From: an uncultured Maribacter sp.
GTDB lineage: Bacteria > Bacteroidota > Bacteroidia > Flavobacteriales > Flavobacteriaceae
Direction: 5' to 3'
Length of the DNA: 64,000 bases
NCBI RefSeq assembly: GCF_947500985.1
Contig: NZ_CANMTX010000005.1
Span: 186,001 to 250,000 of the forward strand
Below are positions 45,548-52,093 of the stretch, piece after piece. The notes beneath the pieces were generated by a model. It had not been told where the DNA came from, made no database searches, and was given only the letters and a program-made list of their open reading frames with translations. The translations under genes were made by a program, and so were the position numbers. Every line of letters starts with the position of its first letter. The first letter of the stretch is position 1.

Positions 45548-45570
45548 GAAAATCAACTTGGTTGATTTTC
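45548..45570. terminator. Terminator between hypothetical gene and nnr
   Basis: A 10-bp stem GAAAATCAAC / GTTGATTTTC with loop TTG. It overlaps the last codons of nnr on the other strand and can act in both directions. Confidence 0.7.
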
Positions 45571-47100
45571 TTCTTCTACAACAGGCTGTTCTGGCATTTT
45601 AAACAGATCTAAGTAAGCTCCAGCTAAATTATCTATTAGATGTGATGCTGTTAAGGATTGAAAACCTGTAGACTCCACTGCAATATCACCGGCTTTACCA
45701 TGCAAATAAACTCCGAAAATTGCAGCATCTAATGCAGCATAGCCTTGTGCTCGTAAGCCTGTAATCACACCTGTCAATACATCGCCACTTCCTGCAGTAG
45801 CCATACCTGGGTTACCAGTTGTGTTTACATAACCTTTTCCATTTTGCACTATAATAGTGTGCGCACCTTTAATTACTAAAATACATTTATACTTTTTCGA
45901 AAATTTCTTCACCTTAGAAAGTTTCTCGAAATCGTCTTTCCATTTTCCTATCAAACGCTCTAGTTCTTTTGGATGCGGAGTCAAAATAGAATCTTCTGGC
46001 AATTCTTTCAGAAAATCTTTATTCTTAGAAAGAATATTAAGCGCATCAGCATCAAGTACCAATGGCAGCTTATTACTTTTCAGAAAACTAGATAAAGCTT
46101 TAACGGTTGCCTCACTTGTTCCTATCCCAATACCTACTCCTATGACCGTTGGTTCTATTTCTATCTTTATATCTGTAAGTTCATTTTCATTGGCATCGGT
46201 TAAAACCATAATTTCAGGTAATGAGGTCTGCAAAATGTTATATCCTATTCTTGGAACATAAGATGTTACTAAACCGCTACCTGAATAAAGTGCAGCTTTA
46301 GACGACAGACATACTGAGCCCATTTTACCATAACTACCTCCAATAATTAAAGAATGTCCGTAAGTTCCCTTATGTCCATATTTCTCACGCGGCTTGTACA
46401 TTGTAAGTACTTCATTCTTTCCAATTAATTCATAATCGGTTTCCGTCACCCTTAAATATTCCGGATCTAACCCAATATCTAAAACTTCCCACTGTTCTAT
46501 ATACTTTCCTGTTTCAGGCAAGAAAAAAACTAGTTTCGGAGTTTGAAAACTCAACACAAAATTAGATTTTATAATTGCCTCAAAATCTTCGGGACCTTTA
46601 TCTGTAAATAATCCCGAAGGAATATCAATAGATAGAATGAAAGCTTGAGAATTATTTAAATACTGAATTACTTTTGTTACCCATGCGTCTGGTGTTCTAT
46701 TTAATCCAATTCCAAAAATTCCGTCTACAATAATATCCTCCCTACCAATTTCTGGTAGCTCATCATCACAATTCATAAAATGAGGCCAAACCTTGCGATC
46801 TTTCAGTCTATCTAAATTTATCAGAAAATCTTTTGAGCGCTTCTCACTATAATTAATAACATACACTTCTACATTATAACCATGATCCACTAGGTGTCTG
46901 GCAAGGGCAATACCATCTCCCCCATTATTACCAATACCGCAGAATAAATGTATTTTTACTGGGGCGCCTTGCATACGCAAATGCATCCAATTGAAGAGTT
47001 GTAAGGCTGCGCGTTCCATCAATTCATTGCTGCCTATTTCTTCTTTTTTTATAGAAATCTGATCTGCTTTATAAATCTGTTTTGCACTGTATAATTTCAT
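45553..47100 (-). CDS. nnr: Bifunctional NAD(P)H-hydrate epimerase / ADP-dependent dehydratase
   Basis: A 515-residue metabolite-repair enzyme. The N-terminal YjeF_N epimerase domain (about 1-215) has CGIGNNGGDGIALARHL and GIFGIGLNR. The C-terminal ribokinase-like dehydratase domain (about 225-500) has GGSYGKMGSVCLSSKAALYSG and the ADP-dependent signature NPGMATAGSGDVLTG. It restores damaged NAD(P)H hydrates. A perfect minus-strand TAnnTTTG (47177-47170) lies upstream, adjacent to the thr promoter, but with a short spacing to the nearest -33-like CAA. Confidence 0.95.
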   Translation of the reverse strand: MKLYSAKQIYKADQISIKKEEIGSNELMERAALQLFNWMHLRMQGAPVKIHLFCGIGNNGGDGIALARHLVDHGYNVEVYVINYSEKRSKDFLINLDRLKDRKVWPHFMNCDDELPEIGREDIIVDGIFGIGLNRTPDAWVTKVIQYLNNSQAFILSIDIPSGLFTDKGPEDFEAIIKSNFVLSFQTPKLVFFLPETGKYIEQWEVLDIGLDPEYLRVTETDYELIGKNEVLTMYKPREKYGHKGTYGHSLIIGGSYGKMGSVCLSSKAALYSGSGLVTSYVPRIGYNILQTSLPEIMVLTDANENELTDIKIEIEPTVIGVGIGIGTSEATVKALSSFLKSNKLPLVLDADALNILSKNKDFLKELPEDSILTPHPKELERLIGKWKDDFEKLSKVKKFSKKYKCILVIKGAHTIIVQNGKGYVNTTGNPGMATAGSGDVLTGVITGLRAQGYAALDAAIFGVYLHGKAGDIAVESTGFQSLTASHLIDNLAGAYLDLFKMPEQPVVEEENQPS

Positions 47101-47155
47101 TCTTTATTTTTTTTACATCTAAAAAGTAACGATTCCATAAAAAATTGTGGAATCA

Positions 47156-47186
47156 TTTGTTTAGGATATCAAATGTACTACTTTTG
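47156..47186 (+). promoter_or_regulatory. Promoter of the thr leader/operon
   Basis: TTTG (47156-47159), a 19-bp spacer and TACTTTTG (47179-47186) are an exact match to the Bacteroidota consensus TTTG / TAnnTTTG. Transcription would start near 47190-47193, about 15 nt before the leader peptide ATG and about 175 nt before thrA. Confidence 0.8.
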
Positions 47187-47206
47187 ATTTTCAACCATTA
47201 GTATTT

Positions 47207-47299
47207 ATGGACTGCTATAAAACAGACATAACATTCGATTTCACTACAGCTACTATTACTTATGGTACAACAACTGCATGGTTCACCCTTAGGGGTTAA
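47207..47299 (+). CDS. thrL: thr operon leader peptide (30 aa, threonine-rich)
   Basis: A 30-codon frame (ATG 47207, TAA 47297) just after the promoter and 69 bp before thrA. Ten of its 30 residues are Thr (6, 9, 13, 14, 16, 18, 21, 22, 23, 27) and two are Ile, including the run TTTAWFT. This is the composition expected of an attenuator leader that senses charged tRNA-Thr, as with E. coli thrL, but the sequence is unrelated. No strong intrinsic terminator is seen between 47299 and 47369. Only weak competing stems are possible (ACCC 47285-47288 with GGGT 47293-47296, or that GGGT with ACCC near 47315), so the mechanism is open. Confidence 0.75.
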   Translation: MDCYKTDITFDFTTATITYGTTTAWFTLRG

Positions 47300-47368
47300 A
47301 AACTATATTTCTCCGTACCCGTGTTTAATTACACCATATCTTAAATTACAAAGTCAATATTTCATATC

Positions 47369-49810
47369 ATGAAAGTTCTAAAATTTGGTGGTTCATCTGT
47401 AGCCAAACCCGAAAATATAATTAAAATTAAGAATATAATCTCCAAGTATAATGACCCGATAATTCTGGTTGTTTCTGCTTTAGGAGGTGTAACGGATCTA
47501 TTATTAGAAGCTGGGTCATTAGCTTCTACTCAAGATCAATCTTACAAAGAAATTCTTAGCACATTAGAAGAAAGACATCTTTCTACCATAAAAGAACTAA
47601 TACCTGTAACGGCACAAAGTAAAGTACTTAGTAAAGTTAAGAGCGAGTTCAACGTATTGGAAACTCTTTTGGAAGGTGCTTTTTTTATTGGAGAAATCAC
47701 TCCGAAATTATCTGATAAAATAGTTAGCTATGGAGAACTTCTTTCTTCTTATATTATCAGCGAATACCTTGTTAGTGAAAAATTAGACGCTGAATTTAAA
47801 GACAGTAGAGAGCTGATAATTACACATAAGCTTAACGGCAAGAATGTCGTCAATTTCGCAAAAACCAATGCTAACTGCCTAGATTATTTCAAAGCTTCAA
47901 ATAAGAAAGTAACCGTTTGCCCAGGATTTATAGCTACTTCTGAAGAAGGAGTATCTACTACTTTAGGCAGAGGTGGCTCTGATTATACTGCAGCAATATA
48001 TGCTGCCGCTATTGATGCAGATGTTTTAGAGATTTGGACAGATGTTAGTGGCATGTATACTGCGAATCCAAAAATGGTAAAGCAAGCAAAAGCTATTCCG
48101 CATATTTCATATGAGGAAGCTATGGAGCTGTCTCATTTTGGTGCTAAAGTGCTTTATCCGCCTACTATTCAACCTGTATTATCTAAAGGCATATCTATTG
48201 TTATTAAGAACACTTTTAGTCCTGATGAGGCTGGAACATTAATTACAAAATCTAAAAATGAAAAAGGAAAGACAGTTCGTGGAATAAGCCATATTGGCAA
48301 TATTGCTTTGCTATCTTTGGAAGGACCGGGAATGGTAGGTATACCAGGTATTTCAAAGCGCTTTTTTGAAGTTCTTTCTCAAGCAGATATTAGCGTAGTT
48401 CTTATAACACAAGCGTCTTCTGAGCATTCTATCTGTGTTGGTATTTCTGCAAATGATGTTGAAAAGGCAGTAAATATTGTGAATGAAGCCTTTGAATATG
48501 AAATTGAAAGAGGTCGCATAAAAGAAGTAATACCTGAAAAAGATTTAGCAATTGTTGCCCTAGTTGGTGACAATATGAAAAGCCATCAAGGATTGAGCGG
48601 TAAAATGTTCAGCACTCTTGGCAAAAACAATGTCAATATTAGAGTGATTGCCCAAGGTGCGTCTGAAAGAAACATTTCTTGTATTATAGATGAAAAGGAT
48701 GTCAAAAAAGCACTGAATGCATTGCACGAAGAGTTTTTTGAAGAAAACATTAAGCAATTAAACCTATTTGTAATGGGTGTTGGTAATGTTGGGGCTAAAT
48801 TTCTAGAGCAAATTAAAGAGCAACGTAAATTCTTGAAAGAGAATTTAAAATTGAACATTCGAGTTATAGGAATGTCCAACTCAAGAACTATGCTTTTTGA
48901 TGAAAAAGGGATTGACCTAAATGATTGGTCAGCCAAACTTGCGGCAGGTGAAAAAGCCGACAAGGTTAAATTTTTAGAATTGGTAAATAGCCTAAACTAT
49001 AGAAATAGCATCTTTGTTGATAACACAGCAAGTGAAGAGGTTTCTAAAACGTACAGCGAATATTTAGGTAATAGTATTTCTGTAGTTACTTGTAATAAAA
49101 TTGCTTGTTCTTCTGCCTTTGAGAACTATTCTCATTTAAAATCCTTAGCAAGAACATATAACGCTCCTTTCTTATTCGAAACTAACGTTGGCGCTGGGCT
49201 ACCCATAATTGACACTTTAAAACACCTAATTGCATCCGGAGATAAAATCCTTAAAATTCAGGCTGTTCTTTCAGGAAGTTTAAACTTTGTTTTCAATAAC
49301 TTCAATGATAAAACCACCTTTCATGATGTGGTAAAACAAGCTCAGGAAGAGGGATATACAGAACCTGATCCAAAAATTGATTTAAGTGGAGTTGACGTAA
49401 TGCGTAAAATATTAATTTTAGCTCGTGAGAGTGGAAATCAATTAGAAATCAGCGATATTACCAACAAACCATTCTTGCCTGAAGAAAGTTTAAACACAGC
49501 TAATAATGATGAGTTCTTTGCTTCTCTAATACAAAATGAAGCTCATTTTCAGTCCTTATACACTAGTGCAAAAAATGCAGATAGTAAATTGAAATATGTT
49601 GCTCAGTTTGATAATGGCAAAGCAAGTGTAGGTTTACAAGAAATACCTAAGGGACACGATTTTTACAACCTAGAGGGTAGTGATAATATCGTGCTTTTTT
49701 ATACAGAAAGATATCCTAATCAACCAATGATCATTAAAGGTGCTGGTGCCGGAGCTGCAGTAACAGCTTCTGGTATATTTGCGGATATTATACGAATTGG
49801 TAATTTCTAA
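47369..49810 (+). CDS. thrA: Bifunctional aspartate kinase / homoserine dehydrogenase
   Basis: An 813-residue fusion. The aspartokinase domain (about 1-290) has KFGGSSV at 4-10 and TLGRGGSDYTA. Two ACT regulatory segments (about 310-455) follow, which bind the feedback inhibitor. Homoserine dehydrogenase (about 465-813) has the NAD(P)-binding GVGNVG at about 469-474 and ETNVGAGLPIIDTLK. It catalyses the first and third steps from aspartate to threonine. It is the first structural gene of thrABC, 23 bp from thrB. Confidence 0.97.
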   Translation: MKVLKFGGSSVAKPENIIKIKNIISKYNDPIILVVSALGGVTDLLLEAGSLASTQDQSYKEILSTLEERHLSTIKELIPVTAQSKVLSKVKSEFNVLETLLEGAFFIGEITPKLSDKIVSYGELLSSYIISEYLVSEKLDAEFKDSRELIITHKLNGKNVVNFAKTNANCLDYFKASNKKVTVCPGFIATSEEGVSTTLGRGGSDYTAAIYAAAIDADVLEIWTDVSGMYTANPKMVKQAKAIPHISYEEAMELSHFGAKVLYPPTIQPVLSKGISIVIKNTFSPDEAGTLITKSKNEKGKTVRGISHIGNIALLSLEGPGMVGIPGISKRFFEVLSQADISVVLITQASSEHSICVGISANDVEKAVNIVNEAFEYEIERGRIKEVIPEKDLAIVALVGDNMKSHQGLSGKMFSTLGKNNVNIRVIAQGASERNISCIIDEKDVKKALNALHEEFFEENIKQLNLFVMGVGNVGAKFLEQIKEQRKFLKENLKLNIRVIGMSNSRTMLFDEKGIDLNDWSAKLAAGEKADKVKFLELVNSLNYRNSIFVDNTASEEVSKTYSEYLGNSISVVTCNKIACSSAFENYSHLKSLARTYNAPFLFETNVGAGLPIIDTLKHLIASGDKILKIQAVLSGSLNFVFNNFNDKTTFHDVVKQAQEEGYTEPDPKIDLSGVDVMRKILILARESGNQLEISDITNKPFLPEESLNTANNDEFFASLIQNEAHFQSLYTSAKNADSKLKYVAQFDNGKASVGLQEIPKGHDFYNLEGSDNIVLFYTERYPNQPMIIKGAGAGAAVTASGIFADIIRIGNF

Positions 49811-49833: not shown

Positions 49834-50760
49834 ATGAGCCAAAACGAAATTAAAGTTTTTTGCCCTGCTACAGTAGCAAATGTTTCATGCGGATTTGATG
49901 TTCTAGGGGTTGCCCTAGACTCGGTCGGTGATGACATGATAGTGAGAAAAGTGCCCCAAAAGGGTATTAGAATCACCAAACTAACAGGACAAGACCTACC
50001 AAAAGAAACCTTGAATAACGTAGCAGGTGTAGCAGGTAATGCATTCTTATTAGCATCTGATTATGATGGCGGATTCGAAATTGAAATCAATAAAAAAATA
50101 AAACCCGGTAGTGGTATTGGTAGTAGCGCCGCAAGTTCTGCAGGTGCTGTCTGGGCAATGAACCATTTATTGGGTAACCCGTTCAGTAAAACAGAATTAG
50201 TAAAATTCGCCATGGAAGGTGAGCGTTTGGCAAGTGATGTTGCCCATGCAGACAATGTAGCCCCTGCCCTATTTGGTGGGTTTACATTGGTGCGCAGCTA
50301 TAGTCCGCTAGATGTAATTACTATCCCTGCTCCTTCAGAATTATATGTTACTATTATACATCCGCAGATAGAGATAAAAACATCAGATTCTAGAAAGATT
50401 CTGAAAACTACTATTTCTATGGAAACCGGTATTAAACAATGGGGAAATGTAGGTGGTTTAGTTGCCGGATTATTCAAAGAAGACTATGACTTAATTGGTC
50501 GTTCTTTAGAAGACCATATTGTAGAGCCTATTCGTTCTATATTAATCCCTGGTTTTGATGAAGTAAAAAAGGTTTCTCTAGAAGCTGGTGCCTTAGGCTC
50601 TGGCATCTCAGGATCCGGACCGTCAATTTTTGCATTTAGTAAAGGGAACGAAACAGCAACAAAGGTCGGTAATGCGATGAAAACGGTTTATGATAAAATC
50701 GGTATAGCTTACGAAATACATGTTTCAAAAATTAATATGGAAGGCGTTAAAATTTTATAA
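49834..50760 (+). CDS. thrB: Homoserine kinase
   Basis: A 308-residue GHMP kinase that phosphorylates homoserine. The N-terminal VFCPATVANVSCGFDVLG, the ATP-binding GSGIGSSAASSAG (about 92-104) and the C-terminal GALGSGISGSGPSIFAF are present. Middle gene of thrABC. Confidence 0.97.
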   Translation: MSQNEIKVFCPATVANVSCGFDVLGVALDSVGDDMIVRKVPQKGIRITKLTGQDLPKETLNNVAGVAGNAFLLASDYDGGFEIEINKKIKPGSGIGSSAASSAGAVWAMNHLLGNPFSKTELVKFAMEGERLASDVAHADNVAPALFGGFTLVRSYSPLDVITIPAPSELYVTIIHPQIEIKTSDSRKILKTTISMETGIKQWGNVGGLVAGLFKEDYDLIGRSLEDHIVEPIRSILIPGFDEVKKVSLEAGALGSGISGSGPSIFAFSKGNETATKVGNAMKTVYDKIGIAYEIHVSKINMEGVKIL

Positions 50761-50800: not shown

Positions 50801-52093
50801 TTGAAATTCTATAGTTTAAATAATAAAGCACCAAACGTTTCTTTTGATACAGCGGTTATTAACGGTATTGCACCTGATAAAGGTTTGTATTTTCCGGAGG
50901 AAATTAATGCATTACCTAGTTCTTTTTTCGAGAATATTGAAAGCCTATCTAACGAAGAAATTGCATTTACGGCAATACAGCAATTTGTATCGGGCATTGT
51001 ACCTGATGATGTCTTGAAGAACATTTTAAAAGAGGTGCTAGATTTTGATTTCCCTGTAGTTGAAATCACTCCCAATATTGGAACTCTGGAGCTTTTCCAT
51101 GGTCCGACGATGGCATTTAAAGATGTTGGCGCTCGTTTTATGGCACAATGTTTAGGCTATTTTTCAAGGTCTACAAAAAATGAAGTAACCGTACTTGTAG
51201 CTACGTCTGGTGATACGGGAGGCGCAGTAGCCAATGGTTTTCTTGGTGTTGAAGTTGTAAACGTTGTTATACTTTACCCAAGCGGAAAAGTTAGTGATAT
51301 TCAGGAACGACAACTGACCACTATGGGGGAAAATATAACAGCTTTAGAAGTTGATGGCACTTTTGATGATTGCCAGGCTATGGTTAAGAATGCCTTTTTA
51401 GATAAAGAACTTCTTGATCACATGAAGCTAACTTCAGCGAATTCAATTAATGTTGCTCGTTGGTTACCACAATTATTTTATTTCTTATTTGCTTACAAGC
51501 AAGCAAAATCAAAAGGTAAAGAGATTGTATTCTCTGTACCTTCTGGTAACTTTGGAAATATCTGTGCCGGTCTTGTTGCCCAACGTCTGGGCATGCCCGT
51601 AAAACATTTTATAGCGGCTACAAATGTAAATGATACCGTACCGCAGTTTATGCTAACCAAAGCATATAATCCTAAACCATCTACGGCGACTATTTCAAAT
51701 GCAATGGATGTTGGTGATCCAAGTAATTTCATAAGAATAAGACATTTGTTTCAAGATGATTTTGAAGCTTTACAAAAGAACCTTTCCTCCTACCCATTTG
51801 ATGATGAAACAACAAAAGAAGCCTTAAAGGAAATATACAACATCAATGGATATATTGCTGACCCTCATGGTGCAGTAGGTTACCTAGGTTTAAAAAAATA
51901 TCAAGAACAACACCCTAACACCTATGGTATTTTTCTAGAAACTGCTCACCCGGTAAAATTCTTGGATATCGTTGAAGAAACGCTTCATGAAAAATTGGAA
52001 ATTCCTGCTCAAATTCAAAAAGTAATGGGGAAAGACAAAAAATCTATCAGAATAGCGAACTATGAAGAATTGAAATCTTTTCTAAAAAATTAA
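50801..52093 (+). CDS. thrC: Threonine synthase (TTG start)
   Basis: A 430-residue PLP enzyme that converts O-phosphohomoserine to threonine. The PLP lysine is Lys107 in GPTMAFKDVGARF; ATSGDTGGAVANGF and SVPSGNFGNICAG are phosphate-cup and substrate motifs. The conserved N-terminus KFYSLNNKAPNVSF follows directly from a TTG codon at 50801, and no ATG lies upstream, so TTG is the start. Weak initiation may tune its level relative to thrAB. Confidence 0.96.
   Translation: MKFYSLNNKAPNVSFDTAVINGIAPDKGLYFPEEINALPSSFFENIESLSNEEIAFTAIQQFVSGIVPDDVLKNILKEVLDFDFPVVEITPNIGTLELFHGPTMAFKDVGARFMAQCLGYFSRSTKNEVTVLVATSGDTGGAVANGFLGVEVVNVVILYPSGKVSDIQERQLTTMGENITALEVDGTFDDCQAMVKNAFLDKELLDHMKLTSANSINVARWLPQLFYFLFAYKQAKSKGKEIVFSVPSGNFGNICAGLVAQRLGMPVKHFIAATNVNDTVPQFMLTKAYNPKPSTATISNAMDVGDPSNFIRIRHLFQDDFEALQKNLSSYPFDDETTKEALKEIYNINGYIADPHGAVGYLGLKKYQEQHPNTYGIFLETAHPVKFLDIVEETLHEKLEIPAQIQKVMGKDKKSIRIANYEELKSFLKN

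Follow-up and report, generated by a model that had tools for sequence, protein, structure and literature searches.

Control of amino acid biosynthesis through translation of a short leader peptide is best known from Proteobacteria. The enteric threonine leader thrL is rich in threonine and isoleucine, whilst in the tnaC and mgtL systems leader translation governs the loading of Rho downstream and the signals sensed are other than threonine. In a paper of 2010, leader-peptide systems were known only in Proteobacteria and Actinobacteria, with Firmicutes then added (PMC2965389). From Bacteroidota come the described Bacteroid-trp RNA (PMC2864571, PMC6414381), leader-like small frames in Bacteroides thetaiotaomicron (PMC7366714) and strong clues for leader-peptide attenuation before amino acid operons of Flavobacterium psychrophilum, with conserved elements named before pheA and hisG (PMC9723704). 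Here we describe a threonine-rich leader preceding the thrABC operon in a 64,000-nucleotide stretch of DNA from an uncultured Maribacter sp. of the family Flavobacteriaceae (assembly GCF_947500985.1, contig NZ_CANMTX010000005.1, positions 186,001 to 250,000), referred to below as the window, whose numbering is used throughout.

The elements of this leader (its promoter, the short frame, the threonine codons within it, a hairpin at its stop codon, a motif behind the hairpin and the base composition of the RNA that follows) are established by comparison of sequences between genomes. Together they make it very probable that thrABC is controlled by ribosome-mediated sensing of Thr-tRNA; as isoleucine is the second commonest residue in the tails of the leaders, Ile-tRNA may perhaps be sensed too.

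A threonine-rich frame before thrA

The leader frame lies on the + strand at 47207 to 47299 and comprises 30 codons, ten of them for threonine, with runs TT and TTT (MDCYKTDITFDFTTATITYGTTTAWFTLRG); its start codon stands 20 bases past the -7 box of the promoter. The peptide has no NCBIfam match. Comparison was made with a near set, consisting of the thrA loci of the best 80 of 352 confirmed relatives plus the window, and a wider set of 120 further thrA upstream regions. Families are given by code where needed, f5 belonging to the same order, f10, f11, f12, f15, f16 and f17 to the same class and f29 to another class. One near locus (L049), whose contig ends 95 bases before thrA, was left out of the promoter and leader counts, and redundant segments were removed from the counts of threonine codons and of the P2, YATAT/TCCG and P3 elements described below. 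For a few loci the match starts one or two codons into the gene, and distances there are off by the same amount.

By a strict cut, requiring five or more threonines among the final 18 residues of a frame within the last 300 bases before thrA, a leader is found in 57/80 near loci and in 25/63 wider Flavobacteriaceae loci, against 1.0 and 0.5 in shuffled sequences. Within the same class it is found in f15 (6/6), f11 (4/5), f10 (4/5) and f16 (1/2), with 0.0, 0.2, 0.0 and 0.0 in the respective shuffles, and in the same order in f5 (1/1, shuffles 0.0); seven of the 17 loci of f29, in another class, also pass (shuffles 0.1). The cut was passed by one of three f22 loci, but with a frame unlike the rest, and by no locus of f12 (0/4), f23 (0/4) or nine further families (0/10). 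Shuffles gave at most 0.2 passes for any family outside Flavobacteriaceae, and the reverse strand gave 0/200. Threonine-rich leaders before thrA are thus widespread in Flavobacteriaceae and also occur in five further families of the same class and in one family of another class. Many of the Flavobacteriaceae loci that miss the strict cut carry three or four threonines interspersed with isoleucine.

The codons themselves point to a translated frame. Threonine makes up 45% and isoleucine 15% of the ten codons that precede the hairpin in 115 distinct loci. All four spellings of threonine, ACA, ACC, ACG and ACT, occur at every one of the seven positions leading up to the last; where the final codon meets the hairpin only ACC or ACG is possible by construction, and this codon was not counted for spelling. 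The other reading frames of these segments are Leu/Gln-rich and Tyr/His-rich. That the identity of the amino acid is kept whilst its third bases are free is a coding signature of this frame. Near-locus frames are mostly about 20 to 33 codons long, with the stop about 59 to 84 bases before thrA (170 in L064), and end in TTTPLG or similar in most near loci and in FTLRG or FTPWG in Maribacter. The leader thus has the character of a ribosome-mediated attenuator, being short and rich in codons for the product of the operon, with its translation suggested by the codon pattern; Bacteroidota ribosomes do not recognise Shine-Dalgarno sequences (PMC9976891). These comparisons lend support to the original prediction, made from the window alone, which had read the arrangement as threonine-sensing attenuation and proposed a search for the frame and its threonine codons in relatives; their absence there, which it had named as a refuting outcome, was not what the search gave. 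The promoter, the 30-codon frame with ten threonines and thrABC also lie where it had placed them.

The promoter (47156 to 47186, + strand) consists of TTTG at 47156-47159, which we take to be the -33 element of promoters in this group, followed after 19 bases by the -7 element TACTTTTG at 47179-47186. The -7 sequence matches the consensus TAnnTTTG (PMC9723704). One match to the whole pattern occurs in the window, against 0.84 in shuffles, and because about one match per 64 kb is expected by chance the sequence alone is weak proof. Its conservation in near relatives nevertheless argues that the promoter is real: TTTG-N19-TAnnTTT[G/A] precedes thrA in all 80 near loci with sufficient upstream DNA (79 relatives and the window), with a spacing that is invariably 19 though 17 to 21 was permitted in the search. 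Further out the exact pattern is scarce, being found in 12/63 wider Flavobacteriaceae loci, at some of them away from the leader's position, and in 0/37 loci of other families. With the start site predicted from this promoter, the leader has the position of an attenuator, downstream of the operon promoter and upstream of thrA.

The operon lies on the + strand and comprises thrA, encoding the bifunctional aspartate kinase/homoserine dehydrogenase I (47369 to 49810; NCBIfam NF006959, 1045.7 bits, cut-off 726), thrB, encoding homoserine kinase (49834 to 50760; NF002288 and TIGR00191, both above cut-off), and thrC, encoding threonine synthase (50801 to 52093; TIGR00260, above cut-off). The thrA gene shares 98% identity with its counterparts in Maribacter spongiicola and Maribacter caenipelagi. 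Within 300 bases upstream of the two other aspartokinase genes found in the genome there is no threonine-rich frame. In Maribacter litopenaei (L055/L093) the thrA match has eight internal stop codons and a leader-like frame is still discernible. Just upstream of the promoter, at 47131-47154, is an inverted repeat of ten pairs, one of them G-T (GATTCCATAA-AAAA-TTGTGGAATC), with a T-rich tail; it is partly discernible in close Maribacter and could be a terminator or an operator. The divergent neighbour of the operon (45553-47100, - strand) encodes NAD(P)H-hydrate epimerase and dehydratase domains.

The hairpin at the leader stop codon

A small hairpin, P2, forms over the last leader codons at 47285 to 47296 (+ strand), where ACCC pairs with GGGT across TTAG, ending just before the TAA; in this form, that of Maribacter, the hairpin is a weak version of ACCCC-TTT-GGGGT. 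Across loci P2 starts at the last threonine codon and covers or adjoins the leader stop, which falls in the loop (ITP*), directly after the hairpin (TPLG*) or one codon later (TPFGV*). Amongst distinct loci already holding a threonine-rich frame, P2 attains a fixed threshold score in 53/59 near loci, 27/42 in the family, 5/8 in the class, 1/1 in the order and 5/6 in the phylum, where shuffles lead one to expect 3.9, 1.6, 0.4, 0.0 and 0.6, respectively. The two arms covary across families (ACCCC:GGGGT, CAACCC:GGGTTG, ACAACCC:GGGTTGT, ACGGG:CCCGT, CCCGG:CCGGG) whilst the residues encoded there vary (PLG, PMG, PWG, PPG, PSG, LRG), so it is the RNA that is conserved. The pattern ACCCN{3,4}GGGGTNA has four matches in the genome of the window, one of which is the thr leader.

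About 8 to 18 bases past the G run of P2 lies a second conserved element, YATAT...TCCG, found in the window at 47303 to 47315 (+ strand) as CTATATTTCTCCG. YATAT occurs within 35 bases in 86/115 loci, against about 30 in shuffles, and in 75 of those 86 it stands 8 to 12 bases past the G run; TCCG occurs in 55/115 loci, against about nine. Two loci with a long or unusual spacer (L064 and L119) were left out of these counts and of those for tail composition, P3 and U tracts below. A hairpin 10 to 12 bases behind the RNA end has the spacing of hairpin-stabilised pauses, and by this analogy the distance from P2 to YATAT suggests that RNA polymerase may pause here. By eye, the ACATAT/YATAT motif (47303-47308 in the window) stands a short way behind the stop hairpin in thr leaders and again a short way ahead of the terminator in several leaders of the his and ilv operons (for example L214 and L221).

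Proposed termination in thr leaders, compared with his and ilv leaders

The sequence of events that we propose is as follows. Transcription would start shortly past 47186, judging from the promoter, and a ribosome would translate the leader. With ample Thr-tRNA, the ribosome would pass the threonine codons, reach the stop and leave, allowing P2 to close over the stop region; with P2 closed and the ribosome gone, the C-rich, G-poor RNA behind would lie bare and transcription would end before thrA or early within it, most likely through the action of Rho on RNA polymerase paused near YATAT. With Thr-tRNA scarce, the ribosome would be held on the threonine codons beside P2, leaving P2 open, so that termination would fail and thrABC would be made. 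The stalling, the pausing and, above all, the Rho step are what we infer here.

Between the frame and thrA no intrinsic terminator was found in the window, where the thr leader lacks the G+C-rich stem and U tract of a classical attenuator. The situation is different in f10, where a strong stem and U tract lie between the threonine leader and thrA in 5/5 loci and, in three of the five, a segment at the end of the leader forms a pairing with the 5' arm of the terminator that is better than in 95% of shuffles. The f10 terminators argue that the same kind of leader serves transcription attenuation; a conditional terminator before thrA would be intrinsic in f10 and non-canonical in Flavobacteriaceae.

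Flavobacterial hisG leaders and several ilvD leaders of the same genomes have intrinsic terminators. The hisG gene was located in 11 of the 12 genomes queried and its leader is His-rich in 11/11, that of the window's genome included, with at least three consecutive histidines in ten. A strong stem and U tract follow in 11/11, the tract being interrupted in the window's own genome (TTTTGTATTT), and the antiterminator pairing is matched by only 0 to 7 of 200 shuffles. The hisG leader of the window's own genome (L212) ends THHHFHIHA and is followed by an intrinsic terminator. By eye, an Ile/Val-rich frame followed by a strong stem is present before ilvD in 6/13 loci, again including the window's genome, and five of these have a clear U tract. 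The window's own genome (L224) has the Val/Ile leader MKLPNLKIELVIVIPNLG before ilvD, and a U-tract terminator lies ahead of the gene.

In the thr leaders of Flavobacteriaceae such a terminator is nearly always missing. What they possess in this position is a C-rich, G-poor, little-structured stretch, a candidate Rho-loading region, which in the window runs from 47300 to 47368 (+ strand; C 0.21 and G 0.06 in 70 bases). In the tail from P2 to thrA, C and G are 0.212 and 0.080 for the near set (63 loci) and 0.167 and 0.072 for the wider one (40 loci). Over the 70 bases before thrA the mean C-G is 0.13 for 76 thrA loci and 0.023 for a comparison set of 148 other upstream regions. This skew is absent where an intrinsic terminator is present: tails with the terminator masked have C 0.139 and G 0.127 in the thr leaders of f10 (five loci) and C 0.117 and G 0.124 in hisG leaders (11 loci). 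Both leaders were paired within eight of these 11 genomes; in seven, all but G147, the thr tail is more skewed than the hisG tail (one-sided Wilcoxon p 0.012), and per base the thr tail has 0.109 YC dinucleotides and the hisG tail 0.045. The RNA-binding domain of Rho is encoded in 8/8 genomes examined, so that unstructured C-rich, G-poor RNA behind the leader and Rho itself, as a Rho-dependent attenuator has them, occur together. The tail pattern is what one would expect if Rho replaces the U-tract terminator and, being correlative, suggests as much. Rho as the ending of thr-leader attenuation we regard as the likeliest candidate, with a chance slightly short of even. That no clear intrinsic terminator follows the frame, with Rho or weak stems as possible substitutes, had been anticipated in the original prediction; the tail now points towards Rho.

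Several observations weigh against the reading proposed here. The counts for near loci are not independent, as many of them come from closely related species; 38/63 wider Flavobacteriaceae loci fail the strict cut, and the majority of loci in more distant families are without such a leader. In Pricia the leader is lost in L035 and Thr-poor in L037 and L039. P2 is weak in the window and in Maribacter generally, the window copy falling below the fixed score, and the leader RNA of the window folds no better than shuffles (z -0.13). The 3' arm of P2 finds downstream partners no better than those in shuffled sequences (120 loci; loci with a spacer above 115 bases omitted), so that a search confined to the free arm gave no antiterminator in Flavobacteriaceae. 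As for Rho, 7.4% of the 148 other upstream regions also reach a C-G of 0.13, and base skew is merely a correlate of Rho sites. In the Pricia locus L035 the -7 box lies only 77 bases before thrA, and Pricia is a possible lineage of natural loss.

The first of the rival explanations retains attenuation and supposes that P3, or else P2, serves as an intrinsic terminator of an unusual sort, halting RNA polymerase without a U tract at the position that the classical terminator occupies in hisG and ilvD leaders. P3 is a small, weak hairpin (GTGT-TTAATT-ACAC, 47321 to 47334, + strand) that sits where hisG leaders place their terminator, and it is stabler than shuffles (z below -1) in 26/64 near and 24/40 wider loci. 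The same region, however, holds no hairpin (E > -1) in 17/64 near and 6/40 wider loci, a U tract follows the stem in only 4/116 thr loci (by another criterion, a strong hairpin with a T-rich tail, in 5/125, a few loci of other families being included in both counts), the same genomes employ U-tract terminators in their hisG leaders and the P2 arm is without an alternative partner. Weak and frequently absent, P3 was rejected as an intrinsic terminator in the ordinary sense, and the broader explanation appears unlikely.

Less probable again is translational control, in which the position of the ribosome on the leader would alter how readily the thrA start codon, about 70 bases downstream, is reached or used for re-initiation. 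Leader and thrA are close together, and leader genes have been proposed as aids to re-initiation, Bacteroidetes included (PMC4833913). The peak distance reported there for Bacteroidetes is 11 to 14 bases, however, against 61 to 175 (median 76) from the G run to the ATG here, and f10 has transcription terminators at the corresponding place.

That the region is an operator for a transcription factor, with half sites such as ACGGAC...GTCCGT and an incidental frame, is very improbable. In some clades ACGGACATA does lie in the early part of the frame, with GTCCGT behind it, but complementarity is overall not above shuffles, the arrangement is absent from the window's clade, and threonine identity with free third bases is the mark of a coding sequence. 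Long-range pairing between ACGGAC in the early codons and GTCCGT after the stop was likewise rejected as a general element, being not above controls and missing from the window. The median rank of own against swapped pairs was 0.41 (72 near loci), 0.53 (41 wider), 0.20 (six in the class) and 0.15 (five in the phylum), a weak control in that both pairing ends are conserved; the longest complements came to 5.42 against 5.21 with shuffled 5' parts in the near set, with p ≤ 0.05 in 6/124 loci. A chance frame in an AT-rich spacer we count as refuted, for although 9/5000 dinucleotide-shuffled versions of the 190 bases upstream of thrA contained a short frame with at least ten threonines, the frame is conserved in many lineages and the reverse strand yields none.

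Relation to described leaders

Leader attenuation before flavobacterial amino acid operons has already been proposed, and the thr operon and the present design were not found in the literature. The words 'threonine' and 'thrA' do not occur in the main text of PMC9723704, the supplements lying outside the search, and a literature search gave no recognisable account of a thr leader in Bacteroidota, though the attenuator studies of Lopatovskaya (2010) and Vitreschak (2004) may hold such predictions. The original prediction knew of no description of leader control of this operon in Flavobacteriia; as far as that main text goes this stands for the threonine operon, with the correction that attenuation at amino acid operons as such had already been proposed for F. 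psychrophilum.

Tentatively, and with somewhat less confidence than we attach to Rho, we propose that an ancient threonine leader of Bacteroidota has persisted in different families and in two or more classes whilst its terminator was exchanged, for a U-tract terminator in one family and for a Rho-type one in Flavobacteriaceae, where the stop-codon hairpin would act as a ribosome-release switch beside the classical attenuators that the same cell has for his and ilv. If true, a widespread threonine leader would make leader-peptide logic general in the phylum. His leaders with an intrinsic terminator and thr leaders without one, side by side, would offer a clean test of the coupling between leader translation and Rho, and the leader would be useful in genome annotation as a marker of the thr operon.

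Amongst described systems, enteric thrL (Rfam RF00506, Thr_leader) is alike in its operon and in the logic of a Thr/Ile-rich leader. The flavobacterial thr leader differs from it in lacking the U-tract terminator and in having the stop-codon hairpin and C-rich tail. RF00506 has no match above cut-off in ten genomes, among the matches listed, with many sub-threshold background matches, and an Rfam scan of 46900-47700 at E ≤ 5 gave no match, RF00506 and RF01692 included. Bacteroid-trp RNA (RF01692), an attenuator-type leader of Bacteroidota, is above cut-off in 8/10 genomes, the window's own included, and is a separate element to which the thr leader gives no match. With tnaC and mgtL the thr leader would share the logic of Rho access, the combination of a threonine-codon leader with Rho being suggested here by the sequences only. 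The flavobacterial hisG and ilvD leaders occur in the same genomes and, as in thr, have an amino-acid-rich frame ending near or inside a small hairpin; they differ in having stem and U-tract terminators, and in hisG the segment at the leader end pairs with the 5' arm of the terminator.

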